The notes under the pieces: generated by a model
Seen by the model: the letters and a program-made list of their open reading frames with translations, nothing else
What the model was told of the DNA's origin: nothing
The model's database searches: none
Origin: Chryseobacterium viscerum
Lineage (GTDB): Bacteria; Bacteroidota; Bacteroidia; Flavobacteriales; Weeksellaceae
Assembly: GCF_025949665.1 (NCBI RefSeq)
Contig: NZ_JAPDFT010000001.1
Location: forward strand, 2,542,001-2,606,000
DNA length: 64,000 nucleotides
Direction of reading: 5' to 3'
Translations under genes and position numbers: made by a program
Part shown: positions 4,310 through 19,450 of the stretch, piece by piece
Numbering within the stretch: the first letter of the stretch is position 1
Layout: the number at the start of each line of letters is the position of its first letter

Positions 4310-5956
4310 TCACTTTCTTGTAACTCTCAGTAAAAGTATTAACACCAGAATAATTGAAAAAACAAATCCTAAGACTGCTACCAAAGACAACTCACCTATT
4401 CTCGGACCGGATTCTGAACTAAAAACAATGGCTGTTGCAATTATATTCGCGCCTAAAATCATAGCCAAAATCAAATTGACTACACTGGATTTGATCAGTT
4501 GGTTGGTTTTATCTATATTTTTAATCTCACTGGAAATAGTAAACTTATTTTCATCCAGCTTTTGGAGTACGGAACGAAGCTCTTTCGGGATTTCATCCAC
4601 ATTATCTGTGAAATTCATCATCCTGTCCATTCCTGTTTTTAAAAGATTTTTAGGGCTGATTTTCTTGGTAAAAATTTTCTTTGTGTAAGGGTGAAGACTT
4701 TTTACAATATCCAAATCAGGGTTGATGCTCCTTCCAACTCCTTCTATCAGGCTGATTCCTTTGAATAAAAGATAGAAATAATCTGGCATATAAAGCCTAT
4801 TGTCCTTTAAAATATCCTTCATCTTGTTGATAATCACCTGCACATTGATATCCTGTAATGATGAGCTGTGAACAAAATTCAGAATATCATCTACGTCATT
4901 TTCAAACCGTCTTTCATCAGGAATTTCATAGCTTATGGCCATTTTTTTGAGTGACCGGACTATTTTATGCGAATTTTTAGCGACAAAACTTACAATAAGA
5001 TTTTCAAGAATTTCTTTATCATTAGGCTGAATTTTTCCTACCGCCCCAAAATCTATGAAAACGATTTTACCATCTTTTTTTACTAAAATATTGCCGGCGT
5101 GAGGATCTGCATGGAAGAATCCATAGTCTAAGATCTGTGATACAAACAGCCTTAAACCTGCTTCGGAAACATTTACAGGGTCTATATTATTTGACAGAAG
5201 TACTGTTTTATCTGTAACCTTTATTCCATCAATGAATTCCATACAAAGAATATTGTTGTTGCAGAATTCTTCGTAGACTTTAGGAACATACGTTTCTTTA
5301 TTATTCTTAAAATTGAGACGGAACTGCAGTATATTATTTCTTTCATTAATCAGAGAAACTTCTTCCAGTAATGATTTTTCAAAAGTGGAAATGGCCTGCT
5401 TCATATTAAGCTTCTCTCCTATTTCTGAATAGGCAGAAATCAGTTTTTCAATATCTTTGATAAGCAGTAAATCATCTTCAATAACAGACTGTACATCTGG
5501 TTTTCTCAATTTTAAAATCACAGGACTGCCATCTTTCAAAACAGCTTTATACACCTGAGCAATGGAAGCTGTAGCCAAAGGTTCTTTCTGAATTTCAAGA
5601 AAATAATCTTTCACGGAAATATTGAATTCGCTCTCCAGTGCTTCTTCTACATCCATATCTACTGTTTCCACTTTGTCCTGAAGTTTCTGCAGCTCCTGAA
5701 TCAGTTCCGGCGGCAATAGGTCTTCCCGGTTACTGAATGTCTGACCAAGCTTCACAAAGGTGGGCCCAAGCTCTTCGAGAGCGAGCCTTATTCTTTCGTA
5801 AACGGTTCCTTTTGAAATAATCTCATCTGAATTGGGAGTGTCTTCCTGCTTATTTCCTCCATTCATCCTTGCCAGCATATCTTTGAATCCATATTTACTC
5901 AATACGGAAATCAGTCTTGCGGATCTTTTCAGTTTTCTTTGCTGCTTGTCAAACAT
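4310..5956 (-). CDS. ABC1/AarF/UbiB-family atypical kinase
   Basis: 548 residues from the first ATG (MFDKQQ). The frame is open 7 codons further to a TTG, which is less likely as start. Diagnostic motifs of the UbiB/COQ8 family are present (numbered from that upstream TTG): KLGQ at 76-79, the alanine-rich ATASIAQV loop, lysine in VILKLRKP (K156), HADPHAGN at 289-296, and IDFG with D309. The C-terminus has two transmembrane helices (about residues 495-553). Family members act on quinone biosynthesis and lipid homeostasis as ATPases or kinases at the membrane. Here a role in menaquinone metabolism is plausible but not shown by context. A full promoter is found 80-105 bp upstream. Confidence 0.9.
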   Translation of the reverse strand: MFDKQQRKLKRSARLISVLSKYGFKDMLARMNGGNKQEDTPNSDEIISKGTVYERIRLALEELGPTFVKLGQTFSNREDLLPPELIQELQKLQDKVETVDMDVEEALESEFNISVKDYFLEIQKEPLATASIAQVYKAVLKDGSPVILKLRKPDVQSVIEDDLLLIKDIEKLISAYSEIGEKLNMKQAISTFEKSLLEEVSLINERNNILQFRLNFKNNKETYVPKVYEEFCNNNILCMEFIDGIKVTDKTVLLSNNIDPVNVSEAGLRLFVSQILDYGFFHADPHAGNILVKKDGKIVFIDFGAVGKIQPNDKEILENLIVSFVAKNSHKIVRSLKKMAISYEIPDERRFENDVDDILNFVHSSSLQDINVQVIINKMKDILKDNRLYMPDYFYLLFKGISLIEGVGRSINPDLDIVKSLHPYTKKIFTKKISPKNLLKTGMDRMMNFTDNVDEIPKELRSVLQKLDENKFTISSEIKNIDKTNQLIKSSVVNLILAMILGANIIATAIVFSSESGPRIGELSLVAVLGFVFSIILVLILLLRVTRK

Positions 5957-6033
5957 AGTGTATAATAGTAGGTGCAATTTACTCCAAAAATTGTTCCTTT
6001 ATGAAAAGAATTATTGACAACAATACCAATCCG

Positions 6034-6062: not shown

Positions 6063-6166
6063 TGTTTTAAAGAATAAATTTCATTAATAATAACAAAAAC
6101 CATCATATATCATAAAAATTAATATATTTACAACGTACAAATAAAACAAACCAAAAGTATTACAAC

Positions 6167-6331
6167 ATGAAAAATTTACGTAACAACAAACTTTCAAGAG
6201 AGCAATTAAAAGGGATTGCAGGAAGCGGAATCATTATCGGAAACTGCTCCAATCAATGCTGCCCTACAGACGGAAGACCAAGATGTCCAAAACTGATCTG
6301 CCCTGCTGTAGTATGTCCTCAGTACATGTAA
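6167..6331 (+). CDS. Bacteriocin-like cysteine-rich peptide precursor
   Basis: 54 codons, ATG to TAA. Residues 1-19 resemble the double-glycine-type leader of flavobacterial bacteriocin-like peptides: basic start MKNLRNN, then the conserved KLSREQLKGIAG, ending in GS rather than GG. The remaining 34-35 residues hold six cysteines (27, 31, 32, 40, 45, 50) and six prolines, often as C-P pairs. A leader of this kind is normally removed by a C39 peptidase domain of an ABC exporter during secretion. No such transporter, maturase or immunity gene lies nearby; the neighbours are a UbiB-like kinase and a GNAT-nitrilase. A strong terminator follows. The precursor call comes from leader resemblance; the activity is unknown. 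Confidence 0.7.
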   Translation: MKNLRNNKLSREQLKGIAGSGIIIGNCSNQCCPTDGRPRCPKLICPAVVCPQYM

Positions 6332-6363: not shown

Positions 6364-6396
6364 AAAAAAAGATTGTCTTTCCGGACAGTCTTTTTT
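6364..6396 (+). terminator. Terminator of bacteriocin-like gene
   Basis: Stem GATTGTC/GACAGTC (one G-U pair) extended by A/T pairing, loop TTTCCG, then six T. It begins 33 bp after the peptide stop codon and supports this being a real transcript. Confidence 0.85.
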
Positions 6397-6449: not shown

Positions 6450-6510
6450 GGCTAAAGCCTTTATTACAGATAAATACATAATAAGCGGGCTAAAGCCCGC
6501 TTCTATTGAT
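6450..6510. repeat. REP-like palindromic element, copy 1
   Basis: Contains GGCTAAAGCC (6450-6459), then the perfect palindrome AAGCGGGC-TAAA-GCCCGCTT (6483-6502), followed by CTATTGAT. The same parts recur in the same order at 19326-19385. It lies between convergent genes. Confidence 0.7.
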
Positions 6511-6549: not shown

Positions 6550-8058
6550 TTATTTAAGATAGGTTTCATACAGATCTTTCCGACGGTCTTTCATTACCTG
6601 GACAGAGCCGTTATGATGGAGATCTTTCAATAAGTTCAAGTCTACATCCACAATCAGTGTCATTTCTGTATTGGGAGTTGCTTCTCCTTTTACTGCGTTG
6701 GATGGGAAAGCAAAATCTGAAGGAGTAAATACAGCAGCCTGTCCAAACTGGATATCCATATTGTTTACCTTCGGAAGATTTCCTACACAGCCGGCAATGG
6801 CTACATAACATTCATTTTCTATAGCTCTTGCAGCAGCACAGTGGCGTACCCTCATATAAGCATTCTGAGTATCTGTCAGATAAGGAACAAACAGGATTTT
6901 CATCCCCTGATCAGCCAAAATTCTTGGTAATTCCGGGAATTCTACATCATAGCAGATCACGAGACCTATTTTACCACAGTCGGTATCAAAAACTTTGATT
7001 TCATTTCCACCTTTCATTCCATAATATCTCTTTTCATTCGGAGTAATGTGAATTTTCCGGTATTCATCCATACGGCCGTCACGGTGTAAAAGATAACTTA
7101 CATTATACAGATCATTATTGTCATTATCAAAAACAGGCATACTTCCGGAAATAATATTCACATTATAACTGATCGCCAGGTCTGAAATTTTATTTTTGAT
7201 CTCTTCAGTAAGTTTGGCCAGCTCTATCATACTGTCCCTTTCAGAAAGGTTATTGAAGGGCGCCAGTAAAGGGGTATTAAAGAGTTCAGGGAAAAGAACA
7301 AAGTCTGATTTATAATCTCCCATTACGTTTACGAAAAACTCCACCTGTTCATAAAAAGCTTCTATATCTTTGAAGTGCCTCATCTGCCATTGAACTAATC
7401 CAAGGCGGATAATGCTGTCCTGCATCGTATTTGGTTTTCTGCTGTAATAGATATTGTTCCATTGTAAAAGAACTGCATTTTCTCTCGAAGCTTCATCTTC
7501 AGGAAGATATTTTTTCAGGATTCTTATCGGAAGAAAATTATTGGAAAGCTGAAAAGACAATACCGGATCATAAATCTCTTTATCTCTTACTTTTCTGATA
7601 TATTCTCTTGGAGAAAACTCGTGGCTGTATTTGTGATAATTCGGGATTCTGCCGCCCAGCACAATGGATTTCAGGTTCAAGTGCTCACAAAGCTCTTTCC
7701 GGGCATCATACAGTCTTCTTCCCAAACGCAGTTCACGAAACTCAGGATCTACAAAAACTTCAATTCCATATAGTACATTTCCTGTGGAAGAATGGGTATT
7801 GAATGTATAATTTCCTGTAATATCGCTATAGGTATGATCATCCCCGAATTCTTCATAATTGACTATAATGGAAAGCGCTACAGCAGCCAGCTTGCCGTCT
7901 ACCGTAATACAAATCTGTCCATTAGGGAACATTTTTGTAAGCTTATCAATACTTTTTTTGGACCAAATGGATTCCGACATCTGCGGGTAGGCTCTTTTCA
8001 TCGTTTCCGCCAGTTCATCATAATCCTGAAGAGTCAGGTTTCTTGTTTCTATTTGCAT
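6550..8058 (-). CDS. GNAT acetyltransferase-nitrilase fusion protein
   Basis: 502 residues with two domains. Residues 1 to about 205 form a GNAT fold; the acetyl-CoA-binding stretch is around 101-120 (VFVDPEFRELRLGRR). Residues about 215-502 form a carbon-nitrogen hydrolase with the full Glu-Lys-Cys triad: E258 in LFPELF, K335 in YRKIHI, C369 in GLVICYD. This architecture is known in bacteria (Bacillus subtilis YhcX is of this type), but no substrate is established to my knowledge. It could couple amide hydrolysis with acyl transfer on a small amine; that is inference. Single gene, cytosolic, no signal peptide. Confidence 0.9.
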   Translation of the reverse strand: MQIETRNLTLQDYDELAETMKRAYPQMSESIWSKKSIDKLTKMFPNGQICITVDGKLAAVALSIIVNYEEFGDDHTYSDITGNYTFNTHSSTGNVLYGIEVFVDPEFRELRLGRRLYDARKELCEHLNLKSIVLGGRIPNYHKYSHEFSPREYIRKVRDKEIYDPVLSFQLSNNFLPIRILKKYLPEDEASRENAVLLQWNNIYYSRKPNTMQDSIIRLGLVQWQMRHFKDIEAFYEQVEFFVNVMGDYKSDFVLFPELFNTPLLAPFNNLSERDSMIELAKLTEEIKNKISDLAISYNVNIISGSMPVFDNDNNDLYNVSYLLHRDGRMDEYRKIHITPNEKRYYGMKGGNEIKVFDTDCGKIGLVICYDVEFPELPRILADQGMKILFVPYLTDTQNAYMRVRHCAAARAIENECYVAIAGCVGNLPKVNNMDIQFGQAAVFTPSDFAFPSNAVKGEATPNTEMTLIVDVDLNLLKDLHHNGSVQVMKDRRKDLYETYLK

Positions 8059-19058: not shown

Positions 19059-19450
19059 CGGTATGCGGGTATTTTAAAAGTTGATGTAGGTTAAGAAAGG
19101 AAATTGGGGAAGTAAAAAAGTTGAGAAAGTGAAAATATCGGCTAGGTTGGATTACGCAAAGATGCGATTTCTTTACTTTCAATATGTTTTTTAAGGCGCA
19201 AGGATTTTATCTGCAATAAAATTTTATACAGGATATTTTTTCTTCTGAAGATTGAACAGATGATATGTCATCTGGGAGATCTGCGGGAAACTAATAGATT
19301 CTGAATATTAATCAATTTAAGTTTTGGCTAAAGCCAGCTGATAGGAGCTAAAAGAGAAAGCGGGCTAAAGCCCGCTCCTATTGAATATGTTTATACTATT
19401 TCAGTTTTAAATTAAAGTTTTCTACGCAACTTCTAACTTCTAGTTTCTAG
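19059..19450. other. Gene-free stretch with repeat remnants
   Basis: No reading frame is supported. It holds a degenerate segment with units like CGCAAAGATGCG and AAGGCGCAAGG (about 19153-19205), a REP-like element at 19326-19385, and the array CTTCTAACTTCTAGTTTCTAG (19427-19449) just after the transporter stop. No clear terminator for the transporter apart from the REP palindrome. Confidence 0.6.
19326..19385. repeat. REP-like palindromic element, copy 2
   Basis: GGCTAAAGCC (19326-19335), then AGCGGGC-TAAA-GCCCGCT (19359-19376) followed by CCTATTGAA. An outer arm ATAGGAGC (19341-19348) pairs with GCTCCTAT (19374-19381), so two alternative hairpins are possible. Related to 6450-6510. Confidence 0.7.

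Follow-up and report, generated by a model that had tools for sequence, protein, structure and literature searches.

A conserved cysteine-rich leader peptide of Chryseobacterium and its probable export in trans by a C39-peptidase ABC transporter

We found that a short open reading frame at 6167-6331 of a 64,000-nucleotide stretch of Chryseobacterium viscerum DNA (the window; G000:C1:2542001-2606000 in genome-wide coordinates) is a real, conserved gene, more than a chance ORF, because orthologues recur at one place genus-wide and are under purifying selection. Comparisons of sequences lead us to propose, with a probability of roughly 70%, that the leader of the encoded peptide is cleaved after Gly-Ser and that a 34-residue peptide with three disulfides is exported in trans through machinery of the type encoded on contig C7 of the same genome.

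The gene, its signals and its neighbors are as follows.

4310-5977, minus strand: aarF, an ABC1/UbiB-type kinase, upstream neighbor (Pfam ABC1; synteny)
6123-6130, plus strand: putative Bacteroidota -7 promoter element TATATTTA (kept in aligned orthologue upstream regions)
6167-6331, plus strand: precursor peptide gene, 54 amino acids and stop (translation, orthologues, alignment, dN/dS)
6167-6226, plus strand: leader, residues 1-20, MKNLRNNKLSREQLKGIAGS (sequence; match to NCBIfam NF047798; orthologue alignment)
6227-6328, plus strand: predicted mature peptide, residues 21-54, GIIIGNCSNQCCPTDGRPRCPKLICPAVVCPQYM (six invariant cysteines; computed mass)
6365-6396, plus strand: intrinsic terminator, hairpin and U-run (folding, z = -3.5 relative to shuffles)
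6550-8058, minus strand: GNAT and carbon-nitrogen hydrolase (CN-hydrolase), downstream neighbor (Pfam; synteny)

A preliminary description of this DNA had claimed a 54-residue peptide with six cysteines and repeated Cys-Pro pairs, a leader ending in GS and not GG, and a terminator belonging to the gene. All three claims were confirmed. Translation of the gene gives MKNLRNNKLSREQLKGIAGSGIIIGNCSNQCCPTDGRPRCPKLICPAVVCPQYM, with 54 amino acids, six cysteines, a leader that ends ...IAGS, and Cys-Pro at four places (C32, C40, C45 and C50). The predicted mature peptide of 34 residues has a computed mass of 3642.65 Da with three disulfides and a computed net charge of about +2. The terminator hairpin is 14 bp, A/U flanks included; a simple terminator scan missed it, probably because the A/U pairs absorb the T-run, and folding revealed it. 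The putative -7 element is ~36 nt 5' of the start codon. In the aligned upstream regions of near orthologues it is either TATATTTA or TATCTTTA, with no clear -33 element. Just 3' of the terminator (6450-6504) there is a pair of GGCTAAAGCC palindromes (REP-like, part of AAGCGGGCTAAAGCCCGCTT). A second such pair is at 19326-19379 (4 matches in the window vs 0.8 expected).

The gene is widespread in the genus. All 40 relatives from a scan of a genome collection were in Chryseobacterium, identical orthologues occur in named Chryseobacterium records, and 117 of the 148 genomes in our genus sample have a relative (E <= 1e-6). The order aarF / peptide / CN-hydrolase is kept in 69 of 69 best-matching loci (40 plus 29 further, two sets that overlap partly in species), some of which have tandem copies of the peptide. 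At 11 more divergent loci, the CN-hydrolase gene adjoins the peptide in every case and aarF in 10 (aarF was unmatched in L209). These neighbors are conserved context and lie outside the mechanism of the peptide. At two loci (L035 and L040), the interval from peptide to CN-hydrolase gene exceeds that of other species by 2.7-4 kb, and no further leader peptide was found inside it. The peptide was on no plasmid in a plasmid search at E <= 1e-3. Another genus of the family (g23) has an orphan relative (L199-L202; core CTYECCPEIPKPLCPGYKCPAVICPQ, 55-61% identity) in a different gene context without an exporter or VKOR.

The part of the peptide that is predicted to be mature is the most constrained. 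The preliminary description had staked its proposal on conservation of the cysteine core, and all six cysteines are invariant in an alignment of 35 relatives. CCP, DGRP and the final CP are likewise unchanged throughout. Leaders in this alignment end in GS, GN, GA or GG. For pairs with pS < 0.5, dN/dS was 0.12 for the core, 0.22 for the leader and 0.13 overall. Searches for known structures and families gave little: the predicted structure of the precursor had a mean pLDDT of 60 and pTM of 0.31, an orthologue profile had no match among solved structures at E-values up to 10, and the precursor had no Pfam match over the cut-off.

The leader appears to belong to a type that is named in NCBIfam (NF047798, leader_Chryseo) but uncharacterized, and the peptide is not an isolated oddity. 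The window peptide scored 21.6 bits with this model, below the curated cut-off of 23.5, probably because of extra leader residues; a syntenic orthologue from another species scored 37.7 bits, over the cut-off. Other short genes with the same leader, for which the preliminary description suggested a search, are abundant: there were 58 matches to the leader model in this genome, 35 of them over the cut-off, and none over the cut-off in 14 control genomes. That is, the peptide is an orphan at its locus, as had been claimed, but not genome- or genus-wide, with ~59 same-leader peptides in the genome (the 58 matches plus one further relative of the window peptide type, P0001) and an exporter cassette on another contig.

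We compared the number of cysteines in these 59 peptides. There were six cysteines in 36, four in 18, eight in 4 and five in 1; that is, 58 of 59 had an even number (p = 1e-16 with a coin-toss null, a value that is indicative only since the peptides share ancestry, though their cores are very diverse). As a comparison set we took the 20 window genes with three or more cysteines, of which 9 had an even number. The simplest reading of the parity is that the cysteines form intramolecular disulfides. Five of the leader peptides are clustered at C1:2936981-2938000 (locus L088, G000:C1:2935500-2940500), with cysteine spacing near C-x5-C-x5-CC-x3-C-x4-C, like inhibitor-cystine-knot (knottin) frameworks.

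It had also been suggested that the peptide is modified in trans. According to this alternative, the peptide is a RiPP with cysteines that are altered enzymatically by MNIO, lanthipeptide-like or radical SAM chemistry. The leader is weakly similar to RiPP leader models (CCRG-2, TIGR04149) and there is one MNIO gene in the genome. The leader peptide closest to that gene is ~46 kb away, there is no LanC-like gene in the genome, and both the even number of cysteines and the VKOR-thioredoxin gene in the operon described below point to disulfides. We consider this alternative improbable, and lanthipeptide or MNIO modification unlikely: in a search that covered LanC-like and MNIO enzymes, nothing favored enzymatic modification of the core beyond disulfides.

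The preliminary description stated that the neighborhood has no exporter, modification enzyme or immunity gene. This is true of the immediate neighbors (the ABC1/UbiB-type kinase and the GNAT and CN-hydrolase gene) and is misleading at the level of the genome and the genus. A search for C39-peptidase ABC transporters, which it had proposed, found two genes in the genome. One, on contig C7 (G000:C7:21405-23597), is in a row of genes encoding a VKOR and thioredoxin (VKOR-Trx) protein, the C39-ABC exporter, a leader peptide and HlyD; the catalytic Cys, His and Asp of its C39 domain are invariant. The other is at C1:2313299. About 2 kb from this second gene (near G000:C1:2315755; L084:10756-11430) is a gene for a 224-amino-acid protein whose N-terminus includes a leader-like stretch (ending FKGG) and which may be a larger export substrate. 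Each of the three VKOR-Trx genes in the genome has cysteine-rich peptides with this type of leader nearby. At the other two VKOR-Trx loci (L122:5587-6876 and L123:9409-9603) the leader peptides have different cores (CNC... and CGCVQAGC...), suggesting that oxidases and peptides are paired separately. We asked whether the VKOR-Trx protein might begin with a degenerate C39-like leader-binding domain; a profile comparison aligned 28 columns at E = 0.16, and we do not make this claim.

The exporter and the peptide co-occur. A close relative of the C7-type exporter is present in 139 of the 148 genus genomes (best E-value 0; ~80-100% identical among the matches listed). Of the 139 exporter-bearing genomes, 116 have the peptide type, compared to 1 of the other 9 (Fisher p = 1.3e-5, ignoring kinship). 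The lone peptide-bearing genome without a close exporter relative is 75% complete.

In one part of the genus the two genes are together. In 14 genomes of a sister clade, a peptide of the window type is 0.1-4.8 kb from the C7-type exporter, upstream and on the same strand in all 14. In the loci that we fetched, the operon starts with VKOR-Trx, continues with one or more leader peptides and the exporter, and has HlyD last. The core in the operon is nearly that of the window in most of these genomes (CSNSCCPTDGRPRCPKMYCPAVVCPQYV compared to CSNQCCPTDGRPRCPKLICPAVVCPQYM, with differences at 4 of 28 places); loci L170-L173 have a related form, CVNICCPPPGQIKCPKLICPAVVCPQY. The genomes with the operon are one clade on a tree of the CN-hydrolase protein, with two peptide-less genomes inside it, and they have no copy of the peptide within 1.5 kb of the CN-hydrolase gene (0.7 kb on one side in L189). 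Thus, two parts of the genus carry the gene at different addresses.

The operon also bears on whether the peptide is exported at all. The product could be an intracellular small protein, for example one that binds zinc or copper, with an N-terminus that resembles a leader by coincidence. Six cysteines with Cys-Pro pairs could bind metal, and the copy in the window is an orphan. Against this, the leader is homologous to those of dozens of paralogues and the same type of peptide is inside an exporter operon in 14 genomes. We regard an intracellular protein as very improbable.

Based on these comparisons we infer the following pathway. The leader would be recognized by the C39 domain of the genus-wide exporter G000:C7:21405-23597, which would cut after Gly-Ser (G19-S20) and leave 34 residues. 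The core would be oxidized to three disulfides, probably by the VKOR-Trx protein encoded just before the exporter, and the peptide would be released through the exporter and HlyD. Outside the cell it would most likely act on other bacteria, in the manner of bacteroidetocins. The same-leader paralogues and the C39 exporters support the earlier proposal of a secreted disulfide-rich peptide that uses a remote peptidase-containing transporter. Several observations argue against the proposed pathway: some orthologues have Gly-Asn at the cleavage site, outside the classical Gly-Gly/Ala/Ser motifs; the same genome has a second C39 exporter; 23 genomes with the exporter are without this type of peptide; and the co-occurrence counts do not take kinship into account.

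The leader fits the rule described for C39 and PCAT substrates, which is L(-12), E(-8) or an acidic residue close to it, L(-7) and GG, GA or GS at -2/-1 (PMC6363468). Residues 1-20 of the window peptide have L(-12), E(-9), L(-7), I(-4), G(-2) and S(-1), such that the acidic residue is at -9, not -8. Two NCBIfam families share this leader. NF047798 ('bacteriocin-like protein') models the leader only, not the core, export or function. NF047792, the CCPGW family of putative bacteriocins, has the same leader type and a CCP motif; the window peptide is not a member, scoring 12.2 bits with a cut-off of 80 and having CCPTD, with no Gly-Trp after CCP. The prochlorosins of Prochlorococcus MIT9313, with ~30 double-Gly precursors (PMC6363468), are similar in that many precursors in one genome have one leader type. 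Prochlorosins have variable cores with lanthionines made by one synthetase, whereas the window peptide has probable disulfides and a core that is more conserved than its leader.

The nearest characterized analogue is the bacteroidetocins, proposed class IIf bacteriocins of Bacteroidota that contain cysteines and kill Bacteroidales (PMC6671954); according to PMC8546649, their target is BamA. Both are small cysteine-containing peptides with a double-glycine-type leader and a peptidase-containing ABC transporter, and both have a thiol oxidoreductase gene (here in the sister-clade operon) and no recognized immunity gene. The window peptide is not a bacteroidetocin, because leader length, leader end and gene linkage differ. 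Leaders of bacteroidetocins are 15-16 amino acids and are cleaved after Gly-Gly; that of the window peptide is 20 amino acids and ends Gly-Ser. Bacteroidetocins have at least two cysteines, disulfide-bonded (four in A and B), compared to six here. Their genes are linked to those for a C39-ABC transporter, a transmembrane protein and mostly a thiol oxidoreductase, none of which flanks the window copy. The sister-clade operon does link PCAT, VKOR-Trx and HlyD to the peptide; its VKOR-Trx and HlyD are unlike the bacteroidetocin loci, and we noted no transmembrane protein of the bacteroidetocin kind.

By analogy, the mode of action of the window peptide may be similar to that of bacteroidetocins, and antibacterial action is plausible, with roughly even odds against a signaling role. 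A strain-specific bacteriocin would not usually have so strongly conserved a core and a fixed locus, and no immunity gene was recognized. It is possible, though we would bet against it, that export and folding are as proposed and that the mature peptide serves the genus as a conserved signal or a self-acting extracellular factor, not as an antibacterial. The unusual core conservation allows such a role: the core is nearly invariant, purifying selection is stronger on it than on the leader, the locus is fixed and mostly single-copy in most species, and there is no immunity gene. However, dozens of very different peptides have this leader type, as would sooner be expected of an arsenal, and we found no receptor candidate. 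In addition, bacteroidetocin producers are also without immunity genes, and have a conserved target (PMC6671954, PMC8546649).

No experimental work on these Chryseobacterium peptides turned up in the open-licence literature, and the naming of the leader type in NCBIfam was already known. New here are the assignment of a likely exporter and a likely oxidase, the finding of two genomic addresses, the evidence from cysteine parity and the strong conservation of the core. Comparison of genomes connects a peptide that looks like an orphan to a probable exporter and oxidase. It also suggests that a large set of disulfide-bonded peptides, most of them unstudied, is made in this genus via one export route. 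Tentatively, and at somewhat under even odds, the ~59 disulfide-rich peptides of each Chryseobacterium genome would form a dispersed arsenal that depends on one conserved VKOR-C39-ABC cassette; several are knottin-like in cysteine spacing, and the window peptide would be the genus-conserved member. If so, the arsenal would be a Gram-negative counterpart of the families of disulfide-rich peptides that animals and plants have. If there is one export route, then deletion of a single exporter should silence much of the set, making the function of these 'bacteriocin-like' peptides directly testable.
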